From a virus, in the IMG/VR virus record IMGVR_UViG_3300032053_000565, positions 1-22,656 of that record: a stretch of 22,656 bases of DNA, one strand, 5' to 3'. The position numbers and the translations under genes are program-made. The stretch's first letter is position 1. The number at the start of each line of letters is the position of its first letter. Below, piece by piece: positions 1-21,518 of this stretch. The notes beneath the pieces were generated by a model. That model did not search any database. It had not been told where the DNA came from and was given only the letters and a program-made list of their open reading frames with translations.

Positions 1-1687
1 ATGAGTTGTCATCTGTAATATTTAAGATTACAGCATTTGCTGTAAGCATAAGTCCAACAACTGAACTGGCATGTTCAAGAGCATATCTTGTAACCTTTAC
101 AGGATCAATGATACCTCTCTCAACCAAGTCACCGTACTCTGCCTTAGCAGCATCATACCCGAATCTAGCTTCAGTTGTCTTCTCTCTGTTAGATAGTTTG
201 TCCATGACAACGTCTGCACTCTTGCCTGTGTTATCAACGATCGTTCTCAAGGGTTGCTTGCAAGCCTCAAGAACAACCTGAATACCAGCCCACTCATCTT
301 CTGTGAGACTTAGGGTAGCATCGTCAGCATTGAGTTCGTCTTGGACATCAAGAGCAGCATAGAAGAGAGCACAACCTCCACCCGCGACAATGCCTTCTTG
401 GGCAGCTGCAAGTGTAGCATTTAGAGCATCTTCTACTCTGTCTTTCTTCTCTAGAATCTCTACCTCTGTAGAGCCACCAACCTTGACGATAGCAACGCCA
501 CCAGCTAGTTTGGCTAGGCGCTTACGATAGTGGTTGACTCTAAGGTCATCCATTGTTGTGTCGGTTGCTAGACTGGTTCTGAGAGAAGCAACACGTTCTT
601 CAATTCTTTGTTTGGTTTTAGGGTTTGATGAATCACCAATGATGGTAGCATTCATACGACTGACGATAACCTTCTTGCAGCTGCCAAGCTGTTCCACTGT
701 GACCTTGTTCAAGGCAATAGAAGAAGAGGCATCAATTACTTGGCCGTTTGTCACAGCAGCAATGTCGGAGAGAACGTTTGACTGGTTTTCCCCATAAGAT
801 GGAGCTTTGATAACGCAGGAAGAGAGGTTCCCCTTGAACTTGTTCACAATCAAGGTGTGAAGAGCTTCTCCATCAACCTCTTCAGCTACGATAAGCAATG
901 GTCTCTGACTCTTGGCTACAGTTTCTAGAAGTCCTAGGATATCATTCAGGGCTGAGATCTTCTTATTTGTGAGAAGGATAAGTGGGTTATTTAATTCACA
1001 TGTTACCTTCTCTGGGTTGTTAACGAAGTAAGGTGATACATAGCCACCTTCAATCTGCATGCCTTCAACAACGTCAAGAGTTGTTTGAGTAGACTTTCCA
1101 GGTTCAATGGTGATGATACCATCTCTACCAACCTTTGAGATTGCTTCAGCTAAGAGTTCACCTATCTTACGATCTCCATTAGCTGAAATAGAACCTACAT
1201 TGATAATATCTTGTTCGTTACGAACAGGAATACAATTCTTCTTGAGAGTTTCAATCACTCTCTCGGTAGCAAAGTCCATACCTCTCTTAAGGTAAATGGA
1301 TGATCTACCTGTGGCAATCATCTTGATACCTTCCTTGAGAAGCGCATGCCCAAGTACTGTAGCTGTGGTAGTTCCATCTCCAGCAAGTTCGTTAGTCTTG
1401 GCAGCAACCTCTTTCATGAGTTCTGCACCCATGGATTGAAGTCTGTCCTTGAGGTTAATAGACCTTGCTACAGTAACACCGTCTTTGGTAATGGAAGGTG
1501 GTCCAATGTCATTGTCAATGATGACGTTGTGCCCACTAGGTCCCATTGTAGACCTTACAGCATCTGCTAGAATGGTTGCTCCCTTGAGAAGTTCCTGGTG
1601 TGCCTTGGATCCAAATACAACATCCTGGTGTGGACGTTGAAGGGCATTATTCACCATCGCCTGAGTTGCAGCTCTGTTTGTGTTCAT
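1..1687 (-). CDS. groEL: GroEL-type (group I) chaperonin, 3' end cut by window edge
   Basis: Encodes a 60 kDa chaperonin that refolds proteins in an ATP-driven double ring. 561 codons are visible, compared with 548 aa in E. coli GroEL, so only the extreme C-terminus is missing. The equatorial ATP site is intact: TKDGVTVA near residues 67-74 (its Asp matches E. coli Asp52), GDGTTTATV near 103-111 (its Asp matches Asp87), and VEDALNAT with the Asp398 equivalent just before EGIVAGGG. The apical domain keeps GGYVSPYF and the hydrophobic ILGLLETV helix used to bind substrate and GroES. The ATG at 1687 lies 2 bases after the stop of the preceding gene and has CAGGT in front. It adds about 17 residues relative to E. 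coli; a Met at codon 11 is an alternative start. It is the last visible gene of the minus-strand operon. Phage GroELs are known from the EL and OBP jumbo phages. No GroES is seen here. Confidence 0.96.
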   Translation of the reverse strand, partial: MNTNRAATQAMVNNALQRPHQDVVFGSKAHQELLKGATILADAVRSTMGPSGHNVIIDNDIGPPSITKDGVTVARSINLKDRLQSMGAELMKEVAAKTNELAGDGTTTATVLGHALLKEGIKMIATGRSSIYLKRGMDFATERVIETLKKNCIPVRNEQDIINVGSISANGDRKIGELLAEAISKVGRDGIITIEPGKSTQTTLDVVEGMQIEGGYVSPYFVNNPEKVTCELNNPLILLTNKKISALNDILGLLETVAKSQRPLLIVAEEVDGEALHTLIVNKFKGNLSSCVIKAPSYGENQSNVLSDIAAVTNGQVIDASSSIALNKVTVEQLGSCKKVIVSRMNATIIGDSSNPKTKQRIEERVASLRTSLATDTTMDDLRVNHYRKRLAKLAGGVAIVKVGGSTEVEILEKKDRVEDALNATLAAAQEGIVAGGGCALFYAALDVQDELNADDATLSLTEDEWAGIQVVLEACKQPLRTIVDNTGKSADVVMDKLSNREKTTEARFGYDAAKAEYGDLVERGIIDPVKVTRYALEHASSVVGLMLTANAVILNITDDNS

Positions 1688-1688
1688 G

Positions 1689-2258
1689 TTACCTGTTTAC
1701 GATTGTGCCGTCAGGCATGACAATTGCGTCATCTGTTCCCAACATTTCTTCATCTGGTATAACCATGTTGCGAAGTTGTTCATGTTGGCTTATGGGTCTA
1801 GGTTGAGGACCACCCTGAAGCATCAAGGGATGATTCTGTTGCTGAAGTATCTGTACTGATTGTACAGGCATACCACTCTCAACAGCGTTCATCAACTGCT
1901 CCGGGTCTAACTTCTGGCTAGGTTGTCCTGGAAGGGAACCCATTTGCCCCTGATTGCCATACCAGTTATTGACCTTGTCTTGAGTTGAGTTAATCAAGTT
2001 ACTGACAAAGTCTTGCAGGTTCTTAGTCAAGAGAGTTCTGATGTCATCCAAGTTGGTGTACAGCTCTCCATCAATTCGGTTCAAGTCAACGATCTGACTC
2101 TTGTCAGGTGGACCAACCTTTACTCTGTAGCTAACAGTGTTCCCATCTAGTGTTTCCGTAATGTTACGACCAGCAATGATCGCGGGAACAACAGATTGGG
2201 TTTTGTTAGACAAAATATAGATGATCTGCCCTATTCGCAGTGGCTGTTGTTCGGTCAT
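1689..2258 (-). CDS. Unknown protein directly upstream of groEL
   Basis: About 189 aa from the ATG at 2258, which has an AAGTGAG Shine-Dalgarno-like stretch 10 bases upstream. A GTG at 2273 would add five residues. No family was recognised. The N-terminal 90 residues look like a compact beta-rich domain (QPLRIGQIIYILSNKTQSVV, then VKVGPPDKSQIVDL), followed by a helical segment LLTKNLQDFVSNLINS. The C-terminal half is rich in Gln, Pro and Met with little predicted structure. The stop is almost adjacent to the groEL start, so the two are probably co-translated. A virion or assembly role is possible from context only. Confidence 0.8.
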   Translation of the reverse strand: MTEQQPLRIGQIIYILSNKTQSVVPAIIAGRNITETLDGNTVSYRVKVGPPDKSQIVDLNRIDGELYTNLDDIRTLLTKNLQDFVSNLINSTQDKVNNWYGNQGQMGSLPGQPSQKLDPEQLMNAVESGMPVQSVQILQQQNHPLMLQGGPQPRPISQHEQLRNMVIPDEEMLGTDDAIVMPDGTIVNR

Positions 2259-2296
2259 AGAAGGGTTGCTCACTTAGGGTGTCAATAACCTTACGA

Positions 2297-2497
2297 TTAT
2301 TGTCCTCCGGGATTGTTCAACAGTTTCATATAGTCTTCAGTCAAGACTAGAATCAGGTCCTGGTTCCCGGTTTTTCTCTCATATGGAGTAAGGTCAATGT
2401 TCACTAGCTGTTCCTTGAGCTTGACATCATTCTCATGACCGCCATAGTTCTGGAACACATAAATCAACTTCTGAATAACGCTAAAATGTAACTTCAT
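2297..2497 (-). CDS. Small unknown protein (66 aa)
   Basis: A 66-aa product of unrecognised family in the minus-strand operon. It begins MKLHFSVIQKLIYVFQ and is otherwise hydrophilic; the first 16 residues could form an amphipathic helix, but there is no convincing transmembrane segment. Its ATG follows the TAG of the upstream gene by two bases, which supports translation as part of the operon. No function is assigned. Confidence 0.72.
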   Translation of the reverse strand: MKLHFSVIQKLIYVFQNYGGHENDVKLKEQLVNIDLTPYERKTGNQDLILVLTEDYMKLLNNPGGQ

Positions 2498-2499
2498 AT

Positions 2500-2895
2500 C
2501 TATTTGCCTTCTTTCTGCCTCTTGAGCAGTTCTTCCTTTATCTTGTCAACGTTGTCCTGCACTTTGTCTAAAATAGCCTGACCACTAGCTTCAGCTTTCT
2601 TTAGTGGTTGCATGCCAAGAGCTGTGCGAACAATATCGTTGAGATTCGGAGGAAGTTTTTCTTTCAAGACTTCCATGTCCACATACTTGTGCATCAAGAC
2701 ATCTAGAATCTCTTGTGGATTGCCCTTTTCGTCTGGTTCGGTTTCGCCAGTTTCCTTGTGTTCTTCAATGAACAACACAGGAGGCATTGACTTGTTCTTC
2801 TTTACCAGGATAAACGGAAATGGACTTGGTCTCTCTCCGGGTCTTGGTTCTTCGTATAGAAGTTCTGGAACTTCGTATTTTTCTTGTTGAGCCAT
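2500..2895 (-). CDS. Unknown charged protein (131 aa)
   Basis: A 131-aa protein with a proline- and glutamate-rich N-terminus (LLYEEPRPGERPSPFPFILV), a central region, and a strongly charged C-terminal helix (about residues 103-131, ILDKVQDNVDKIKEELLKRQ) likely to form a coiled coil. The start codon overlaps the stop of the upstream portal-like gene by one base (TAATG), a typical translational coupling arrangement. The family was not recognised. Operon position suggests a partner of the portal-like fragment or of another structural protein, but that is inference. Confidence 0.78.
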   Translation of the reverse strand: MAQQEKYEVPELLYEEPRPGERPSPFPFILVKKNKSMPPVLFIEEHKETGETEPDEKGNPQEILDVLMHKYVDMEVLKEKLPPNLNDIVRTALGMQPLKKAEASGQAILDKVQDNVDKIKEELLKRQKEGK

Positions 2896-3275
2896 TATAA
2901 CGTTACCTCTACTTGGTGTAGTTCAATGCGGGTAGCGCTAATCTCTTGTGGTTCACGACCAACAAAGAATTGCTTTATTCTCTGCCAGAGATTAGGATAT
3001 CCAGGTATTACACCCTTGACTGGAATGAAAAAATCTTCCCATAGTCCAACAGACTTGGCATTCTCAACGAAATTGTTCTTATTGTTAGTTTCAGGTGTCA
3101 AAGATTCTTTTACCTTAGCCATGTACATTGGAATGTCTTTTGGCGGTACCAGTGACACGTCAATATAGAATACACGATTGACAATCGTTGACTTGACAGG
3201 TTCTTGTTTCGGAGGCATCTTGAACGAATCAAAGTTACGTTGCGGGCGTCTTAGAGGAGGATCACCAGTAGGCAT
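2895..3275 (-). CDS. Portal-derived small protein (gp20 segment paralogue)
   Basis: A 126-aa protein whose residues about 34-88 align with residues about 248-305 of the portal protein encoded at 5618 on the other strand. Both contain RVFYIDV, then V-x-P-x-D-(I/V)-P-x-YM-x-x-VK-x-SL, and end in ED-(F/Y)-FIP-x-(K/R)-G. By eye this is about 23 identities in some 55 positions. The RRVFYIDV block is a hallmark of T4 gp20-type portals. The flanks differ from the portal: a Pro-rich N-terminus (residues 1-30) and a C-terminal tail without portal similarity. The gene overlaps both neighbours by one base (TAATG), so it looks like a maintained gene rather than debris. Its role is unknown; an interaction with the portal ring or an assembly function can only be guessed. 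Confidence 0.82.
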   Translation of the reverse strand: MPTGDPPLRRPQRNFDSFKMPPKQEPVKSTIVNRVFYIDVSLVPPKDIPMYMAKVKESLTPETNNKNNFVENAKSVGLWEDFFIPVKGVIPGYPNLWQRIKQFFVGREPQEISATRIELHQVEVTL

Positions 3276-3541
3276 TAGAGCTTCTCCAAAACCTCAACGA
3301 AGGTGTCAAAGGTATCCTTGTGTCCAACTTTTTCTCTGACTTCAACAACTCTCATAGCAGCTTTGAGAGTCTTGACATCAAGCTTCGGACCAAACTCTTC
3401 AACAAGTTGCTTCTTGTCGTCGTTCAGTAACTTGATTTCATTTTCAATGACTCTGAGTCTCTTAACGAACTCTTCAACAATGGGTTGAAGCTCGGTAATG
3501 GAAGATGGTTGTTCGTCTGCTAGTGTTTCTTTGTGTATCAT
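3275..3541 (-). CDS. GapR/DUF2312-like small DNA-binding protein candidate
   Basis: An 88-aa protein resembling the GapR (DUF2312, formerly UPF0335) family. A coiled-coil helix (FVKRLRVIENEIKLLNDDKK, about residues 24-43) is followed by EFGPKLDVKTLKAAMRVVEV, which matches the family pattern of E, a few residues, G-x-D-x-K-x-L-(R/K) and a basic helix. Bacterial GapR proteins of about 80-90 aa bind AT-rich or overtwisted DNA as dimers or tetramers. The length fits. The assignment rests on pattern recall only; a generic coiled-coil structural protein is the alternative. The ATG at 3541 follows a stem-loop that contains part of its AGAGG ribosome-binding region. Confidence 0.6.
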   Translation of the reverse strand: MIHKETLADEQPSSITELQPIVEEFVKRLRVIENEIKLLNDDKKQLVEEFGPKLDVKTLKAAMRVVEVREKVGHKDTFDTFVEVLEKL

Positions 3542-3610: not shown

Positions 3611-4606
3611 CTATTTCAGCGCTTGAATTTGCTTTAGGGCGTTCTGGATGTAAGGTTTCATGTTTGGATCCTTACCGGCTTCAGCGTTCAACTTGCCAAT
3701 GTAGAACTCTTTGTACTTCTGCTTCAGCTGTGGCAAGAGATTAGCCTTGACAGCTGCATCTTGTTGAGGTGGAAGCTTGCCCTGTTTCTCGTTTGCTTGC
3801 ACGACTTGAGTTATCTTACCAACAGCTTGCGGAAGTAACTGTTGAAGGGTGTTGTAGTCCTTCGCAGCCATGATCTTCCTGACACGATCAACCATCAGTT
3901 CCATTGCGTCTGCTCTGCCTTGCTTCACAACAGGATTATTGTCAATCATCTGTTGAACCTTCTTGTCTTTCAACAAGTTTCCAACAGCCTGAACTAGTCT
4001 TGGATCAACACCCTCGTGCAAGTGTTCACCATTCTGCATACCTTGAAGAGCAACATGAAACTGAGATGCTGCATCCTTTACAGCTTGATAGCCGTTGGTA
4101 AGGTCATCTAGAATTGACAACACAATCTCAGGAGACTTGGCTAGGAGTTTTGCTCCCAAGAACAGTCCAGGTTCAAACACAAAGGCTAGACCAAAGGCGT
4201 CGTTGCTTGTGATGGCTTCCCAGTTACGTCCCAGTACTTCCTTGTACTTCTCTTCTATACCATGAACCTTTTCAGCTTCATCTTCTCTGAATTTTTCATA
4301 GTCATAGTCTAGAAATGGCACAAAGAGTGTTGGTAAGCCATAGAGAATACCCTTGACAACTGTCGCAGCTTGTGCACTAAGTTTCTCAACACCATAGGCA
4401 ATAGTTTGTCCTACATCAGTGAAAGGACGAATGAAGGTATTATAGAGATCATTACCTCCACCATGTCCGGTTTCACCACCGCCCCCACCTCCACCATACT
4501 GACTTACGTCAAAACCATAGTCGCTTTCGCTGTCTTCTCGGAGCGTGTCCTTGACTACGGCTTCAATATATTCCCTTAGAAGCTTATTAGACTTATTGTC
4601 TGGCAT
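3611..4606 (-). CDS. Probable virion protein with capsid-targeting-like N-terminus
   Basis: 331 aa from the ATG at 4606; an ATG at 4630 would add eight residues. The chosen start puts NKLLREYIEAVVKDTLRE at residues 7-24, an amphipathic helix ending in L-R-E before DSE. This resembles the leaders of other genes in this window and the T4 capsid-targeting segment cut by gp21 after (L/I)-x-E. A polyglycine stretch follows (about residues 38-52), then a moderately hydrophobic region (IAYGVEKLSAQAATVVKGIL, later LAFVFEPGLFLGAKLLA), and a helical Lys/Gln-rich C-terminal half. No enzyme motif was recognised. It is probably a structural or injected protein and overlaps the upstream gene by about 14 bases. 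Confidence 0.75.
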   Translation of the reverse strand: MPDNKSNKLLREYIEAVVKDTLREDSESDYGFDVSQYGGGGGGGETGHGGGNDLYNTFIRPFTDVGQTIAYGVEKLSAQAATVVKGILYGLPTLFVPFLDYDYEKFREDEAEKVHGIEEKYKEVLGRNWEAITSNDAFGLAFVFEPGLFLGAKLLAKSPEIVLSILDDLTNGYQAVKDAASQFHVALQGMQNGEHLHEGVDPRLVQAVGNLLKDKKVQQMIDNNPVVKQGRADAMELMVDRVRKIMAAKDYNTLQQLLPQAVGKITQVVQANEKQGKLPPQQDAAVKANLLPQLKQKYKEFYIGKLNAEAGKDPNMKPYIQNALKQIQALK

Positions 4607-4928
4607 AGTTGTTCTTTCTTCTCTCTGCATTGATAGCTACCAAAGCCCATCCCTTTTTCTTGTGAACCCAATCGGTGTCGTGAAGCTTGTCTGGGTCTAT
4701 CACCAGTTCAATACCCGTGACTGACTTCCAGTATGCTATCACAGATTCGTCAAAAGCATTTGGGGTTTGTTTCTTAGTACAGGGATGTCTTGCTGAGAAC
4801 AGTTTCCTGTCCTCCTTTGCAAAGGAATTAATCAATTCCTTCTTGACACGTAACCAGTCGGTAGTGGTATCACCAACATAACTTATTACAGTATCAATGC
4901 GTTCTTTGAGGTTAACTGGGATTTCCAT
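4593..4928 (-). CDS. Unknown protein (111 aa), first gene of the minus-strand operon
   Basis: 111 aa from the ATG at 4928, preceded by AGGA nine bases upstream. A GTG at 4958 is possible but has no ribosome-binding site. The family was not recognised. The product is charged, with Trp-containing segments (TTTDWLRVKKELINSF, ESVIAYWKSVTGIELVIDPD, TDWVHKKKGWALVAINAERR) suggesting a small soluble alpha/beta domain. Its 3' end overlaps the start of the next gene. It is the promoter-proximal gene of the minus-strand operon, facing the divergent region at about 4929-5024. Confidence 0.72.
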   Translation of the reverse strand: MEIPVNLKERIDTVISYVGDTTTDWLRVKKELINSFAKEDRKLFSARHPCTKKQTPNAFDESVIAYWKSVTGIELVIDPDKLHDTDWVHKKKGWALVAINAERRKNNYARQ

Positions 4929-5024
4929 AACAGATATTCCTGTAGTGATCTGAACCACTGTCTATAGACCATAATTAGGGTGTGGAAGATTACCAAATAG
5001 AGGGAAGAGGATAGACAGCAATAT
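4929..5024. promoter_or_regulatory. Divergent intergenic region with a 10-bp palindrome
   Basis: This 96-base gap separates the minus-strand operon from the plus-strand structural genes and must hold promoters for both directions. It contains a perfect 10-bp palindrome GTCTATAGAC (4960-4969), immediately followed by CATAATTA (4970-4977). The latter octamer recurs in the gap before the gene at 9733. No canonical T4 late promoter (TATAAATA) or clear sigma70 pair was found. A purine-rich AGGGAAGAGG (5001-5010) lies 14 bases before the plus-strand ATG. Confidence 0.4.
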
Positions 5025-5579
5025 ATGGCTAAGATAGGTTATATCCCAGGTGGCTTCAAACCATTCACAAAAGGTCACTACTTTTTGGTTGAAAAGGCTT
5101 CTCACGAGTGTGACAAAGTCTTTCTTCTTGTTGGTCAGGGTGACCGTATACGCCCTGGTGAACATCCTATTCCCGGTTCTGCGATGCAGGTTGTCTGGAA
5201 TAAGTTCTTGATACCCATCATGCCAGGGAACGTAGAAGTGTCGTTCGCTCCTTCACCTATTAGAGTTGCCTATGAGAAGCTCGGAGCAGCTGACAAGGAC
5301 CCGACAGATAAAAACATCCACATAGTATATGGTGATAATAAGGATTTGGCGGATAACTTCAAAAAAGAAAAACTGGATAAATACATGCCAAACCTCGTCA
5401 AGCAGAAAAGACTTGTACTCAAACCAGTTGAAAGATCCAGCAGCGTGAACATTTCTGGTACAATGATGCGAAAGTATCTACAACTGGGATTGAAGGATGA
5501 ATTCATTCAAGGTCTTCCTGATCCTGTTCAAGCAAAGGGAGAGGCTATCTGGAAACTTCTTGGCGGTCAAGAAGCTTAA
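5025..5579 (+). CDS. Nucleotidyltransferase (cytidylyl/adenylyltransferase fold)
   Basis: A 184-aa protein of the nucleotidyltransferase alpha/beta phosphodiesterase superfamily, which joins a nucleotide to a phosphorylated substrate with release of pyrophosphate. The HIGH-like motif is at residues 9-18 (GGFKPFTKGH), followed by the helix YFLVEKA. The C-terminal nucleotide-binding motif is VNISGTMMRKYL (about 141-152), equivalent to the ISSTxIR motif. A middle strand (NIHIVYGDNKDL) fits the Rossmann-like fold. Size and motifs resemble NMN adenylyltransferase and pantetheine-phosphate adenylyltransferase relatives; the substrate cannot be told from sequence. It lies 38 bases before the portal gene and is probably co-transcribed with it. 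It may serve NAD or cofactor supply, or modify a head component. Confidence 0.87.
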   Translation: MAKIGYIPGGFKPFTKGHYFLVEKASHECDKVFLLVGQGDRIRPGEHPIPGSAMQVVWNKFLIPIMPGNVEVSFAPSPIRVAYEKLGAADKDPTDKNIHIVYGDNKDLADNFKKEKLDKYMPNLVKQKRLVLKPVERSSSVNISGTMMRKYLQLGLKDEFIQGLPDPVQAKGEAIWKLLGGQEA

Positions 5580-5617: not shown

Positions 5618-7651
5618 ATGGCAAGTAACGAATCATTTTTCACAAGGCTTACACGAATCTTCCGTTCTGGACCATCTATCAGAAGGAAGATCAAGGGCTA
5701 CGACTATAACTCTTATTACGACAAGAGAGTTACTCAGAACAACCTTGGCTACAATGGTCCTCTACCATTCAAGAGAGAAGCTTCTCAGTTTTCTGTCATG
5801 GGTGCTTACGGCATTCTGAACCGTATGGCTCAGTACGCTGAGTACTCTGAGATGGAATACACTCCTATCATTGCCAAGGCACTTGACATCTATGCAGATG
5901 AGTCTTTCTCTGGTGATGAAAACGGACAGTGCTTTCACATCTCCAGTGACAATCCAGATATCAAGAAGAAGCTGGAAGAGCTTTTCTACGACACAATCAA
6001 CATTGAATTCAACGGAAGAACCTATGTAAGAAATCTTTGCAAGTATGGAGACTTCTTTCTCTATAACGAAGTAGCTCCCGACATCGGTGTTATTAACGTT
6101 CAGCCAATTGCTGTTAACGAGCTTGAACGCGAAGAAGGATTTGATCCAGAAGATCCATATGCTGTCAGATTCAAGTGGCTTACCAGAGGACAGAAGTATC
6201 TAGAGAACTGGCAAGTTACTCACATGAGAATTCTTGGCAACGACTTGTTCTTGCCATATGGAACTTCTCTCCTGGAATCTTCAAGACGTATCTGGAGACA
6301 GTATGTCATGATGGTAGACGCCATGTTGGTCTATCGTCTTGTTAGATCTCCTGAACGTAGAGTTTTCTATATTGACGTTGGAACTGTAGCTCCGAATGAC
6401 GTTCCAAACTACATGGAAGCTGTAAAGGCTTCTCTTAGGTCTCAGACAGCTGTTGACAAGCTAACCGGTAGACAAGACTACAGATATAACCCCGTAGCTG
6501 TGGATGAAGACTATTTCATCCCTATGCGTGGACCCAACACAGCCACCAAGATTGACACGCTTGCCGGTGGACAGCATGTTACAGCAACAGAAGATATTGA
6601 ACTGATTCAATCTCAGTTGTTCGCAGCTCTCGGTGTTCCAAAGGCTTACTTGGGCTATGACGAATCTCTAAGTTCCAAGGCTACTCTAGCCCAGGAAGAC
6701 ATTCGTTTCTCTAGAAGTATCAACATCATTCAAAAGATCATCATTGCTGAGCTCAACAAACTAGCAATGCTTCACCTCTATGCCTGTGGTTGGGACGGTG
6801 AAGATCTCAATGACTTTGAACTAAGGCTTTCCAATCCATCTACAGTTGCTCTACAGCAGAAGCTTGACATCTGGTCAACCAAGTTTGACATTGTTAGCAC
6901 CATCATGGGTCTTGAAGAAAGACCTGTTGACATGGAATGGATTCAGAAGGAAATCTTACAGTTCAACGATGATCAGATTTCCAAGATCAAGTTTGGTCTT
7001 AAAGAAGACAAGAAGTTCAAAGCTGCACTTGAGCTTATCACAGAACCTGACAAGGACTACGAAGATGTTGTAGATCCCTTTGATCCTTCCAGCTATGAAC
7101 TTCCAGGTGGTAATCCTCCACTACCTGAAAGAGATGAAGGTGAAGGCGACAAAGCCAAGATCACTCCATATGACGGTCAACCAAAGGATGACAGCGTTAT
7201 CTCTAACTCCATTGGAGATGGACTTCCTATCAAGGCTTCAGCTGAAGCTACAAGAAACAGGAAGAACAGACTTAGAAGAAAGAGCGATGGAGCAATTGCT
7301 GCCAATGTTCCTAAGCTAGCCGACATGATGAACTCTAGAAAGAATCAATCACTGAGAGACGTGTATGACTCCGAGTTCCTAAAGAATCCCTTCAGAGAAA
7401 GTATTGAAAACGAAATTCGCAAGGGAGCTTCAACATCTTCATTGTCTAGAGAGATGAGATCCATCATTGAGAACTTCAAGGATGCCAGTGCTCCTATTCA
7501 CCCGACACTTGACATAGACCTTCTAAGAGAAAATGAAGCTGATCGGTCAGAAATCGTTGTTCCTCTCAAACGAGATGAAAACTCTGATGAATTGATTTCT
7601 GAGGCTGACCTACATGAACTTGGGGTTGAGTTAAAGGTACCTAAGCTTTAA
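5618..7651 (+). CDS. 20: Portal vertex protein (T4 gp20 type)
   Basis: A 677-aa portal protein forming the twelve-fold ring through which DNA enters and leaves the head, and which starts head assembly. Recognised from the T4 gp20 pattern: YTPIIAKALDIYADE (about 81-95), LPYGTSLLESSRRIWRQ (about 212-228), ALVYRL-type helix then SPERRVFYIDVG (244-255), EDYFIPMRG (297-305), TLAGGQ (314-319), and ALGVPKAYLGYDES followed by ATLAQEDIRFSRSI (337-369). T4 gp20 is 524 aa; the extra length is mostly a C-terminal extension (about 485-677) that is polar and basic in its middle. A LISE-A sequence near the C-terminus matches the gp21-type cleavage pattern, but its use is unproven. GAGG lies about 13 bases before the start. 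Confidence 0.95.
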   Translation: MASNESFFTRLTRIFRSGPSIRRKIKGYDYNSYYDKRVTQNNLGYNGPLPFKREASQFSVMGAYGILNRMAQYAEYSEMEYTPIIAKALDIYADESFSGDENGQCFHISSDNPDIKKKLEELFYDTINIEFNGRTYVRNLCKYGDFFLYNEVAPDIGVINVQPIAVNELEREEGFDPEDPYAVRFKWLTRGQKYLENWQVTHMRILGNDLFLPYGTSLLESSRRIWRQYVMMVDAMLVYRLVRSPERRVFYIDVGTVAPNDVPNYMEAVKASLRSQTAVDKLTGRQDYRYNPVAVDEDYFIPMRGPNTATKIDTLAGGQHVTATEDIELIQSQLFAALGVPKAYLGYDESLSSKATLAQEDIRFSRSINIIQKIIIAELNKLAMLHLYACGWDGEDLNDFELRLSNPSTVALQQKLDIWSTKFDIVSTIMGLEERPVDMEWIQKEILQFNDDQISKIKFGLKEDKKFKAALELITEPDKDYEDVVDPFDPSSYELPGGNPPLPERDEGEGDKAKITPYDGQPKDDSVISNSIGDGLPIKASAEATRNRKNRLRRKSDGAIAANVPKLADMMNSRKNQSLRDVYDSEFLKNPFRESIENEIRKGASTSSLSREMRSIIENFKDASAPIHPTLDIDLLRENEADRSEIVVPLKRDENSDELISEADLHELGVELKVPKL

Positions 7652-14621: not shown

Positions 14622-15311
14622 ATGAAAATAGTTTACAATGGATATAGTGAAGTTGGTGGCGTATACAAGATAACCAACATTTCAAATGAACGTTTGTATG
14701 TTGGTTCAACAGGTTGTTTTCGCAAGAGAGCAATGAATCATCTTAACCAATTAACCGCCAATACACACAAAAACACATTCCTACAAAATGACTTTAATAA
14801 GTGTGGATCTGATGCATTTAGATTTGAAGTACTTGATGTTGTTGAAGGTGATAAGGCAAATAGACTAAACCATGAACAACACTTCCTAGATCAATTCTAT
14901 GATGGACAAAAAAACTGCTATAATCTTGTTGACAAAGCTACAGATAACAGAAGTGACACTCATAATAAAGAAACTATAAACCCTCTTATAGATGGGCGCT
15001 GTAAGTCACCATCTCCCGAAACTCTCTTAAAGCGTGGACAAGCCATAAGAAAGTCCAAATCAACACCTGAACAAAAAGAGAAGGCAAGACAGAACTGTCT
15101 CAATGGTCGTTGGAAAAATCACTCAGCCAACGTCACCGTAACAAATCTTGTAACCAAAGAGATAGCCACAATTACCGGAAGTGTCCGTGAGTGGTGTCTG
15201 TTACGTAACCTGTCTTACAAGGCTTTTAATCAATTGTTAAATGGCAAAATCAAGAGTTCTGGCGGGTGGGTAACATTTCCAGAATCAGGAATCTATTTAA
15301 GTCTTGAATAG
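14622..15311 (+). CDS. GIY-YIG homing endonuclease 1
   Basis: A 229-aa free-standing homing endonuclease that cuts a DNA target in a sister phage so that its own gene is copied in. The GIY-YIG nuclease domain is residues about 12-101: GVY (13-15), YVG (26-28), catalytic Arg36, metal-binding Glu85 in NHEQHFLDQF, and Asn101. Spacings match I-TevI (Tyr6, Tyr17, Arg27, Glu75, Asn90). The C-terminal part (about 165-229) has a helix-turn-helix DNA-binding look (GSVREWCLLRNLSYKAFNQL), like IENR1/NUMOD modules. Base use is more A/T-rich than the capsid gene, fitting a mobile element. It lies between the capsid terminator and the gene at 15326. Confidence 0.93.
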   Translation: MKIVYNGYSEVGGVYKITNISNERLYVGSTGCFRKRAMNHLNQLTANTHKNTFLQNDFNKCGSDAFRFEVLDVVEGDKANRLNHEQHFLDQFYDGQKNCYNLVDKATDNRSDTHNKETINPLIDGRCKSPSPETLLKRGQAIRKSKSTPEQKEKARQNCLNGRWKNHSANVTVTNLVTKEIATITGSVREWCLLRNLSYKAFNQLLNGKIKSSGGWVTFPESGIYLSLE

Positions 15312-16887: not shown

Positions 16888-18132
16888 ATGGCTCACTCAG
16901 AAACTTCCGTATACAAACGAAAGGTCAAACTCCTTTCAAAGAAGTATATTCACTTACAGAACAGCATATCTGTTCTAAGTGACATCCATTGGAAGCCTTC
17001 AGTCAAGAACAAGTTCCAAGCCTTGGAATTCAAGAGTTTTCCCGAAGTTACAAAAGAAGACTTCGGAGATCCAACCTATGACTATGCCAAGAAGCACAAA
17101 CAACTTACCGACTTCGTAGAAGAAGTTGAATATCACCTAAGTTCTGGTGACCCTGTTGGTCGTATGCTTATTCGTAACACGAAAGCATGGATCTTGGGAC
17201 TTGAACTATCAGAAGCAAAGAACACTCCGGAGTTCTATGAGATCTCAAAGAAGATCTATGGTTCCAGTGAGGATCGTATCTTTGGAATGAAGCTCATTGA
17301 CATAGCCAAGAAGCTTGACAAGTGGTTTACAGAACTTGAAATCAAACAACCTGTGTTAGAGAAGACGGTTACCTCCTCAGAGATGGTAACGGAGCTCAAG
17401 ACACGTTTGAAGAGTTACTTCAAGAAAGATATTGCTGTTCATGAAAAAGAACACATGAGTTCTGACGCCGATGCTGGTCTTGATAGTATTAACATCCGAA
17501 AGGGTGCTGTGTTTACTCTAAAAGACGTTGGAGTCTTTGAAGTTCATGAAGGCTGGGTTCATATGGGTTCGTTCATGAACGGGCACCAGCAGCCTTATAC
17601 GGAATTCCTTGGAGAGCCTTGTCCCGGTACCGACATCGTTCAGGAAGGTTTGGGAGCTTTAACCGAAGTTGTGACCATGAACATCTATCCAGCCCGAGCT
17701 AAGAAGATCATAGACAGGGTTATTGCCATTAACATGGCAGAGAACGGTGCCAGCTTCTTAGATGTCTATCGGTGGTATCTCAACAAGACGAAGGATGATC
17801 CAGACACAGCTTTCGTTAACACAGAAAGAGTGTTTCACGGTGGACTTATTCAGGGTGGAGCTCCATTCACAAGAGACATCATATACCTTAAGGGGTTCTT
17901 GTTTATTGTGAAGTTCCTTGACATGTGCTTTGACAAGAACCATCCAGAACTTATTCCATATCTCTTTGATGGCAATCTTTACATAGACGATATTCCAAGT
18001 ATATACCTTTTGGCTAAACAGGGTATTGTTAAGCCTCCCACATATGTGCCTACCATCTTCAGGGAAGACATAAATCACCTGAAGAAGTTTCTAGAGAAGT
18101 TCAGTTTCATCAAAGACAAGCTTCGTTCGTAA
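16888..18132 (+). CDS. DUF1704/MATCAP-type putative zinc metallopeptidase
   Basis: 414 aa, full length for the DUF1704 ('QEGLA motif', MATCAP) family. The zinc-binding HEGWVH (220-225) is an HExxxH motif; NGHQQPY (231-237) follows; QEGLGALTE (252-260) carries the downstream Glu253; RVFHGG (314-319) and FTRDIIYLKGF (327-337) complete the signature. Eukaryotic members of the family are tubulin tyrosine carboxypeptidases using the HExxxH pair plus a later Glu; bacterial members are largely uncharacterised. All expected residues are present, so it is probably active. The substrate is unknown: it could trim a virion protein C-terminus or act on a host protein. The N-terminus has no signal peptide and no capsid-targeting leader. 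It sits between the KYGK-type head genes and the gp13-like neck gene. Confidence 0.85.
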   Translation: MAHSETSVYKRKVKLLSKKYIHLQNSISVLSDIHWKPSVKNKFQALEFKSFPEVTKEDFGDPTYDYAKKHKQLTDFVEEVEYHLSSGDPVGRMLIRNTKAWILGLELSEAKNTPEFYEISKKIYGSSEDRIFGMKLIDIAKKLDKWFTELEIKQPVLEKTVTSSEMVTELKTRLKSYFKKDIAVHEKEHMSSDADAGLDSINIRKGAVFTLKDVGVFEVHEGWVHMGSFMNGHQQPYTEFLGEPCPGTDIVQEGLGALTEVVTMNIYPARAKKIIDRVIAINMAENGASFLDVYRWYLNKTKDDPDTAFVNTERVFHGGLIQGGAPFTRDIIYLKGFLFIVKFLDMCFDKNHPELIPYLFDGNLYIDDIPSIYLLAKQGIVKPPTYVPTIFREDINHLKKFLEKFSFIKDKLRS

Positions 18133-18162: not shown

Positions 18163-19407
18163 ATGGTTAATTTCAATCAAACTCTCAGACCAACACCGTT
18201 CGGGCTCTATGATTCTGACATCCAGTTTCAGAGAGACGCTGACAGCATGGTTGTATTTGTTATGCGTAAGCTTGGAGAAGACATTCTTTCGGTTGAACTT
18301 ACCAAGAAGGAAATCTGGGCATGCTTTGAAGAAGCTTGTCGTGAGTTCAATGGCTACATCATTGAGTACCAAGCTATATCCAACTTGGTTAATCTTCTAG
18401 GCACGTCTACCGGATCTATTGACAGCACTACAGGGTTGAACACAATCAATCTAACCAATGCCTATGTTGGACAGAACCTGGAGTTTCTTGATCGCTTAGC
18501 TGAGCCGTATGCTAACATCATTGGTTTCGGTTCAACCCAAGACAGCTTTTCTGGGTCTATTCACCTAAGACCAGGAGTTCAGAACTACGATCTCTACACA
18601 GAACTGGTCAATGATAGTGGAAATCCAATTTATACCACCAACAATCCTACCGGTGGCAAAATGCGTATCTATGAAGTCTTCCACTTCATGCCTCTTCAGT
18701 ATGTTTTCAACAGTAACCTTGCTTCTAACTTCGTTGCTCAGGGATTGCCTGTAGAGAGCTACATTCCAGACACAAGATTCTATGTTCTTCCCTTGTTTGA
18801 AGACATTCTCAGGGCTGACATGCTCAAGAGTGCTGCCAAGGTAAGAAGATCTCACTACTCATACAAGATTTCAGGTAGAAATATTCAGGTATTCCCTGCT
18901 CCAAGTAACCTAATTGAAGGTTTGAACAACCAGTTGTGGATTAGAGTTGGCTTTACAAGCAATGCTACACCGTTTCCATCCGGTTCATTCTTTGATGCTA
19001 GCGGTTCTCTCATTGGTGGAGGAACTTCTACCACAGCTGCAACATATTTCGGTGCTTCTAACCCTGCCAATGTTCCCTTTGGTCTTGTTACCTATGCTAC
19101 ACTGAATCAGTGGGCAAAGAACTGGATCATGCAATATACCCTGGCGCTCGCAAGAGAAGTTTTGGGTTCTATCCGTAGAAAAATCAAGAGTCTTCCGATC
19201 CCAGGTGCTACCCTTGAGTTGGACGGTGAAGAGTTGGTTACTCAAGCTAGAGAAGACAAGGAAAGACTGCTTACTCACCTCAATGAATACCTTCAGGGTC
19301 TCAGCTTCAGCAAGCTAGCAGAACAACAGGCTACACAAGCAGAAAACCTGATGAAACAGATGAGTTTTCTTCCAATGCCTCCAGCATATGCGATTAAGAT
19401 CTGGTAA
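18163..19407 (+). CDS. 13: Neck / head-completion protein (T4 gp13-like)
   Basis: A 414-aa structural protein placed directly before gp14-like and gp15-like genes, as gene 13 is in T4. Features: DADSMVVFVMRKLGEDILSV then LTKKEIWACFEEACREFNGY near the N-terminus, a central beta-rich region, RNIQVFPAPSNLIEGLNNQL, and a C-terminal helical part MQYTLALAREVLGSIRRKIK with PGATLELDGEELV, a pattern common in T4-type neck proteins. Such proteins seal the portal after packaging and form the tail-docking ring. T4 gp13 is 309 aa, so this one is longer. Assignment rests on pattern and gene order; another virion connector role is possible. Confidence 0.65.
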   Translation: MVNFNQTLRPTPFGLYDSDIQFQRDADSMVVFVMRKLGEDILSVELTKKEIWACFEEACREFNGYIIEYQAISNLVNLLGTSTGSIDSTTGLNTINLTNAYVGQNLEFLDRLAEPYANIIGFGSTQDSFSGSIHLRPGVQNYDLYTELVNDSGNPIYTTNNPTGGKMRIYEVFHFMPLQYVFNSNLASNFVAQGLPVESYIPDTRFYVLPLFEDILRADMLKSAAKVRRSHYSYKISGRNIQVFPAPSNLIEGLNNQLWIRVGFTSNATPFPSGSFFDASGSLIGGGTSTTAATYFGASNPANVPFGLVTYATLNQWAKNWIMQYTLALAREVLGSIRRKIKSLPIPGATLELDGEELVTQAREDKERLLTHLNEYLQGLSFSKLAEQQATQAENLMKQMSFLPMPPAYAIKIW

Positions 19408-19436
19408 TTGATTATAATACAAACGGGGGCTCTTGA

Positions 19437-19455
19437 TTCATACTGAACCTATGAA
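19437..19455 (+). promoter_or_regulatory. Hairpin covering the start codon of homing endonuclease gene 2
   Basis: TTCATA (19437-19442) pairs perfectly with TATGAA (19450-19455) around a 7-base loop. The ATG at 19451 is inside the stem. TTGA (19433-19436) and TCAA (19458-19461) can extend it after a 2-base bulge. Upstream are TATAATAC (19413-19420) and a GGGGG run (19425-19429) that is too far from this ATG for normal use. Confidence 0.45.
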
Positions 19456-20098
19456 ATTCAATTATCAAACCAATTCTAACAAATCAGGTATTTACAAAAT
19501 TACCAATACGATTGTTAACAAGGCATATATTGGTTCTGCTGCTAAATTTGAACGAAGGTGGTATGATCATAAACGAGCCTTTGAAAAAGGAACTCATAGA
19601 AATCAACATCTTCTCAACAGTTTCAATACACATGGAACAGATGCATTTGTATTTGATGTTATTGAAGTAATGGAAAACTCAACCAAAGCTGAACGATTAG
19701 TTAGAGAAGAATTCCATCTCCAAGAGATCATCAAACAAGGAATTGAAGTCTATAACTCTCAACTCAAACCGACCAAAGAGGCTAAAGAACGATCGTGTTT
19801 CTCTAAGACGCCAGAGGAAACAGCTTGTGATGCATCTAATCGTTTTACAAAACTCTGGGCAGACCCTTCTTACAAACAAGAAGTCTCGTCCAAAATCAAA
19901 GCTTTCTACAATACAGAAGAAGGTCGTCAGCTATCAATTGAGCGCAATACTGAAGCCTGGAAAGATAGTGCGGAAAGACGAGAGAAAGCTAAAGAACGCA
20001 TGGTTAAGCGCAATGCTTCCATGACATTAGAACAGAAGACCATCGCAGCTCAAAAGATGACCGAAGGTCGTAGAATTGCTAAATTACGCCGACAATGA
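19451..20098 (+). CDS. GIY-YIG homing endonuclease 2
   Basis: 215 aa from the ATG at 19451; a TTG at 19433, three bases after GGGGG, could add six residues. GIY (13-15), YIG (26-28), Arg36, Glu86 or Glu87 in VREEFHLQ, and Asn102 give a complete GIY-YIG active site, with the F-N-x-x-G-x-D-x-F pattern around 58-67. The C-terminal half is basic and helical (PSYKQEVSSKIKAFYNTEEG, SAERREKAKERMVKRN), probably the DNA-recognition part. It fills the gap between the gp13-like and gp14-like genes and ends 16 bases before the latter. A/T-rich, consistent with a mobile gene. The start site is in a hairpin. Confidence 0.92.
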   Translation: MKFNYQTNSNKSGIYKITNTIVNKAYIGSAAKFERRWYDHKRAFEKGTHRNQHLLNSFNTHGTDAFVFDVIEVMENSTKAERLVREEFHLQEIIKQGIEVYNSQLKPTKEAKERSCFSKTPEETACDASNRFTKLWADPSYKQEVSSKIKAFYNTEEGRQLSIERNTEAWKDSAERREKAKERMVKRNASMTLEQKTIAAQKMTEGRRIAKLRRQ

Positions 20099-20808: not shown

Positions 20809-20824
20809 CCCATACTTGCATGGG
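20809..20824 (+). promoter_or_regulatory. Hairpin overlapping the ribosome-binding site of homing endonuclease gene 3
   Basis: CCCAT (20809-20813) pairs perfectly with ATGGG (20820-20824) around ACTTGC. The GGG belongs to the GGGAG ribosome-binding site (20822-20826) that lies five bases before the ATG at 20832. The stem is short but GC-rich, and also ties up the alternative ATG at 20820. Confidence 0.5.
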
Positions 20825-20831
20825 AGTAATC

Positions 20832-21518
20832 ATGGAAACAATCTATAATGGAAACTCAAAAGCTAGCGGCACATACAAGATAGTCAACAAAACAAATAGC
20901 AAAACTTATTATGGTTCAGCGAAGTGTTTTCAAGTGAGAGCTTCGCAACATCTTAAGGATTTAATCACAAATAAACACGGAAACAGACATCTTCAAGGAT
21001 CATTCAACTTGGATGGAGCTGATTCATTCGTATTTGAAGTTCTTGAAGTGATTGAAGGCACCAAGCAAGACAGACTTGATGCCGAGCAAAAGCTTCTTAA
21101 CCAATTCTGGGATAATTGTGTGAACTGTTATAATATTGAGAAAACATCTTACAGTAGAGAAGGAAGTAAAGACAAAAGTCCGGAAGCTTCATTTCAAAGA
21201 CGTTCAAGGTCGGTTATAGGAAGGAAACATACTGAAGCTTCTAAACAATACATGTCACAGATACACAAAGCTTTGATTTCTAACCCACGAATGACAGGGA
21301 AAACTCATACAGAAGAAACAAAGCTTAAGATGTCAGCAGCTAGAGCAAACAAAAGAAAAATCAAGGCGATTTGCATTTCTTCTGGGGTTATAAGTGAATT
21401 TTTAAGTGTAATTGAAGCTTCTAAACAGCTAGAGATTACACCAAGCTGTATTGTTCGTGTTGCTAAGGGTGACCGACAAAAGACACACGGATACAGGTTT
21501 GAATATATGAATGAATAG
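20832..21518 (+). CDS. GIY-YIG homing endonuclease 3 with NUMOD3 and IENR1-type domains
   Basis: 228 aa from the ATG at 20832, chosen because GGGAG is five bases upstream and the N-terminus then matches endonuclease 1; an ATG at 20820 would add four residues. Active site: GTY (13-15), YYG (26-28), Arg36, Glu85 (AEQKLLNQF), Asn101. Two NUMOD3-like DNA-binding repeats follow (GRKHTEASKQYM and GKTHTEETKLKMSAARA). The C-terminal helix-turn-helix (EFLSVIEASKQLEITPSCI, then GYRFEY) is of IENR1 type. It is clearly related to endonuclease 1, especially in the first 100 residues, and lies between the gp14-like and gp15-like genes. Confidence 0.94.
   Translation: METIYNGNSKASGTYKIVNKTNSKTYYGSAKCFQVRASQHLKDLITNKHGNRHLQGSFNLDGADSFVFEVLEVIEGTKQDRLDAEQKLLNQFWDNCVNCYNIEKTSYSREGSKDKSPEASFQRRSRSVIGRKHTEASKQYMSQIHKALISNPRMTGKTHTEETKLKMSAARANKRKIKAICISSGVISEFLSVIEASKQLEITPSCIVRVAKGDRQKTHGYRFEYMNE

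Follow-up and report, generated by a model that had tools for sequence, protein, structure and literature searches.

The portal protein of T4-type phages, gp20 in T4 (PF07230, phrog_213), forms the DNA-entry ring of the head, and its clip domain (residues 279-358, three strands and helix α6) is exposed outside the capsid, where it is the docking site of the packaging ATPase gp17 and the neck protein gp13 (PMC4493910). The clip sheet is built from two neighbouring subunits and holds the only main-chain bonds between them (PMC4493910), and, according to a preprint, the arm of gp13 inserts between clip helices (PMC12270204). A synthetic peptide of gp20 residues 288-311 binds gp17 and inhibits packaging (PMC4493910), but this is an experimental fragment and not a natural gene. 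Two other systems bear on what follows. Phage-encoded GroEL-like chaperonins (phrog_5725) include gp146 of phage EL, in which helix αQ is replaced by a plastic equatorial loop near the ring-ring interface (PMC7185714), a loop that is variable in phages too. Phage satellites encode packaging interference proteins, which are not known to be copies of the portal.

Here I analysed a window of 22,656 nucleotides, positions 1 to 22,656 of IMG/VR record IMGVR_UViG_3300032053_000565, in which a 126-aa protein resembling the portal clip is encoded by a separate gene on the strand opposite to the portal. The relevant features, with cassette genes named by their number, are as follows.

2895-3275, minus strand: stand-alone clip-like gene, 126 aa
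3012-3176, minus strand: its clip-like core, residues 34-88 (strand, helix, strand)
3090-3161, minus strand: its residues 39-62, the counterpart of the gp17-binding T4 peptide 288-311
3275-3541, minus strand: gene 88, a conserved family, the upstream neighbour in the cassette
2500-2895, minus strand: gene 131, a conserved family, the downstream neighbour
2297-2497, minus strand: gene 66, cassette gene of unknown function
1689-2273, minus strand: gene 194, cassette gene of unknown function
2-1687, minus strand: phage GroEL-like chaperonin (phrog_5725, E 4e-147), the last cassette gene, without a clip-like insert before GYDAA
3611-4630, minus strand: gene 339, cassette gene of unknown function
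4593-4958, minus strand: gene 121, cassette gene of unknown function
5025-5579, plus strand: cytidylyltransferase-like gene next to the portal, kept in many relatives
5618-7651, plus strand: T4-type portal protein (Portal_T4, E 3e-63; T4 gp20 in the PDB, E 8e-20)
6359-6532, plus strand: clip segment of the portal (residues 248-305), aligned to T4 gp20 from R283 and thus inside the clip
18163-19407, plus strand: head-tail adaptor (Ad2, neck) family protein (phrog_211, E 5.7e-9), a likely partner of the portal clip, a role inferred from T4 gp13 (PMC12270204)

The initial annotation proposed that a piece of the portal lives here as a gene of its own, and this observation is confirmed. By BLASTP, residues 34-124 of the protein align with residues 248-334 of the window's own portal (37/97 identical, E 8e-13), with a strong core at residues 34-88 against portal 248-305. 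The only PHROGs family hit is the portal family phrog_213 (E 0.0026, residues 34-85), and the only Pfam hit is Portal_T4 at 13.8 bits, below the gathering score of 22.9. A clip profile gives the protein 40.9 bits, whereas the best of 20,000 shuffles of the same protein reaches 11.9, so the resemblance is not due to chance. Both junctions with the neighbouring genes read TAATG, so that the stop and the next start overlap on each side, and the gene differs from the only near-identical contig by a single synonymous base. The flanks, described as unrelated to the portal, are indeed so for the N-terminal ~30 aa, but the C-terminal end may hold the third clip strand, at residues 100-105 in the predicted model. 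Nothing else of a portal is present: in a protein of 126 aa, BLASTP and profile matches are confined to the clip region, and the predicted model contains none of the helical stem that flanks the clip in a portal, nor are there wing and crown domains.

The gene is not a one-off. Its neighbours form a conserved late-gene cassette, 121-339-88-[clip]-131-66-194-GroEL, opposite to the portal, in about thirty IMG/VR contigs (referred to here by L numbers). In most of these, gene 88 overlaps or directly abuts gene 131, but in six divergent lineages (window/L119, L120/L121, L124, L125, L126 and L028/L127) a small ORF lies exactly between them on the same strand. These ORFs share a strand, a helix starting around P-x-D-I-P-x-Y-M, a strand with (F/L)IPV, and a further strand. 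Left out in turn, each is recovered by a profile of the other five among 18,807 ORFs, at E 2.5e-4 to 4e-18 (2.5e-7 for the window gene), and portals are the only other family with strong matches; the profile built without the window gene matches portals with a best E of about 1e-9. Supporting this, whole-record searches of 25 relatives with the 126-aa protein and the family profile returned only portals, these same-position ORFs and, in two records, an insert in the cassette's GroEL. The one comparable pair, L120 and L126, gives dN 0.30 and dS 0.91, which is consistent with purifying selection, though the gene is short.

Tracing the distribution on the portal tree requires four changes, for example one gain and three losses inside one 14-member clade. 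I considered whether the portal was duplicated independently in each lineage, but the clip tree instead groups the stand-alone genes together (81/91, 76% of bootstrap trees), although long branches make this grouping weak. A direct comparison of the 126-aa protein with the L028 ORF by BLASTP and MAFFT showed no convincing similarity, and only clip or family profiles link the two. Clip-profile hits at E about 1-2 in L060, L062, L111 and L074 were rejected as noise, and a scan of viral contigs with the L126 and L120 proteins found no further members. Single-gene queries with genes 339 and 131 found only the near-identical contig, and a search of genome contigs gave no relative of gene 131 and so no host. 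The reference phages Microcystis Mel-JY01 and Flavobacterium immuto show neither the cassette nor the gene near their portals. A hit of the protein to the GroEL of Pantoea phage Survivor (E 0.9) is due to chance, as the aligned stretch is ordinary chaperonin sequence. In L141 (6072-6962) and L146 (6075-6965) a GIY-YIG type gene is inserted at the same junction of genes 88 and 131, so the junction may be an insertion hotspot; three further GIY-YIG homing-endonuclease-like genes lie among the head and neck genes of the window (14622-15311, 19433-20098 and 20820-21518, plus strand).

The initial annotation missed a second occurrence of portal clip sequence in a sister clade of the same cassette. 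In L028 (GroEL at 333-3134, minus strand) and L043 (9971-11734, plus strand) the chaperonin carries about 45 extra residues just before the conserved GYNAA, for example KVFYIDVGNVQPEEMALYIEQVKKEM, and each insert alone finds portals at E 1e-7 to 1e-8. Among the relatives L036-L042 and L053, eroded versions are present in L036, L038, L039, L040, L042 and L053, whereas L037 and L041 differ. The four inserts included in the tree form one group (100/99) inside the portals of the very clade that carries them (83/77), so a portal segment was probably copied into groEL there, and portal clip sequence thus seems to have been captured at least twice. By alignment the insert follows the region of helix αQ. 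AF2 models it mainly as a helix at low confidence (pLDDT about 50-76), and the inserts hold mainly strand 1 and the helix. In that clade the stand-alone gene is missing except in L028, but the complementarity is incomplete, as L122 and L123 lack both the gene and a clip-like GroEL insert.

AF2 on the six-member alignment, from which portals were excluded, predicts a strand at 31-39, a helix at 45-59, strands at 79-86 and 100-105, and a helix at 109-125. This is clip topology, at moderate confidence (pLDDT 75-87 in the first strand and helix, pTM 0.45). The viral structures in BFVD that resemble the model are led by T4-type portals, but with poor E-values; they include a short uncharacterised protein (A0A6J5KTP7, 114 aa) that may be another member. 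Against solved structures, residues 274-357 of T4 gp20 (9lu6) aligned to model residues 28-110 only weakly, at Z 2.3 among unrelated rows. Foldseek against the PDB gave no hit, its rows being tubulins and thioredoxins of low probability, and there was no PDB sequence match. An isolated clip may in any case differ from the subunit-shared sheet of the ring. A profile match to the portal and the predicted fold had both been named beforehand as points on which the idea could fail: the profile match exists and the predicted topology agrees, although the fold match itself is weak.

What does a portal clip do outside the portal? The initial interpretation, that a stand-alone piece of portal might modulate ring assembly, act as a plug or adaptor, or protect against related phages by poisoning their portal, is supported only in part. 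That a separate, maintained gene carries a piece of portal, and that it recurs in related phages at the same place, holds; since the piece is the clip, the surface that in T4 docks terminase and neck, a plug is unlikely and an adaptor or decoy is plausible, while ring poisoning and superinfection protection remain conjecture. At this point the best candidate, to which I would assign a probability of roughly 0.4, is a soluble clip mimic without the stem, wing and crown needed to build a channel. In this view it would present the helix that terminase (gp17 type) and the neck adaptor (gp13 type) recognise, bind one of them off the portal, and so delay, chaperone or tune their docking. Its association with the phage chaperonin, through the shared operon and the segment fused into GroEL in the sister clade, suggests that the partner is handed to or from GroEL during head maturation. 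The sequence analysis itself establishes the homology to the portal clip, the conserved position and the intact, translationally coupled reading frame, together with repeated capture of portal sequence in so far as the probable copying into groEL holds; the mimicry, every binding step and the link to the chaperonin are inferred, the binding from T4 work alone. The T4 contact residues N291, M292, R295 and K296 are not conserved in the protein (L, V, K, D), although the window portal also differs from T4 there (T, V, N, D). Furthermore, the stand-alone genes diverge fast, the gene is absent from sister phages such as L122 and L123 and so is dispensable, and the presumed partner terminase is encoded outside the window.

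A broader version of this reading, that a reusable clip module exists outside the portal, carried as a free protein or grafted into the chaperonin to control how terminase and neck engage the portal and linking chaperonin action to the packaging-to-neck switch, is not excluded but is unlikely on present evidence. The clip is where the packaging motor and the neck take turns on the head, and how that hand-over is timed is an open question; a natural free clip, and the same domain built into a chaperonin, would be a ready tool to trap motor or neck off the portal and would show that a ring-protein domain can move between unrelated machines. It also marks small phage ORFs usually filed as hypothetical as possible assembly regulators. 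The fold is known, and its use as a separate gene is the new part: literature searches, restricted to open-licence papers, found no description of a stand-alone or paralogous clip gene or of a clip graft in a chaperonin.

Of the alternatives, a portal-ring regulator survives best, though I consider it unlikely: the free clip would add a strand to the exposed edge of the portal's clip sheet and cap or time ring assembly, so that dodecamers form only when enough portal is present. The subunit-shared sheet of T4 and the strands and helix kept by the family are compatible with this, but a cap would also poison the phage's own portal, and the GroEL-grafted version holds mostly strand 1 and the helix. 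Less likely still is interference with co-infecting related phages by a moron-like packaging or portal decoy, comparable in effect to the satellite proteins; if this reading is right, the protein would act on packaging in trans as they do, although here the gene is in the phage itself. The patchy presence and fast divergence, the GIY-YIG gene at the same junction in L141 and L146, and the inhibition of T4 packaging by a free clip peptide are in its favour. However, such a decoy would have to spare its own terminase, and the gene sits in a conserved cassette of unknown genes with a chaperonin rather than in a defence island; PADLOC gave no hit, though novel systems would be missed. A minor virion protein beside the true clips at the portal-neck junction is similarly doubtful, as the small size, shared clip fold (as predicted) and nearby head genes are offset by its location in a separate opposite-strand cassette and its absence from sister phages. 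A functionless relic of portal duplication or recombination, attractive because the portal is the sole relative and portal sequence has been copied elsewhere (GroEL), is very unlikely given intact frames, overlapping start/stop junctions, one position kept across six divergent lineages and a dN/dS of about 0.33 in the one comparable pair.

The L028 GroEL (333-3134) also bears an intein-like insert, its middle matching PHROGs that often bear inteins, and the portal ORFs L028:8630-13012 and L125:588-4961 are unusually long (about 1460 aa) and look intein-bearing. Finally, a MATCAP (microtubule-associated tyrosine carboxypeptidase, PF08014) family protein (E 3.7e-88) is encoded among the phage head genes of the window at 16888-18132 on the plus strand.
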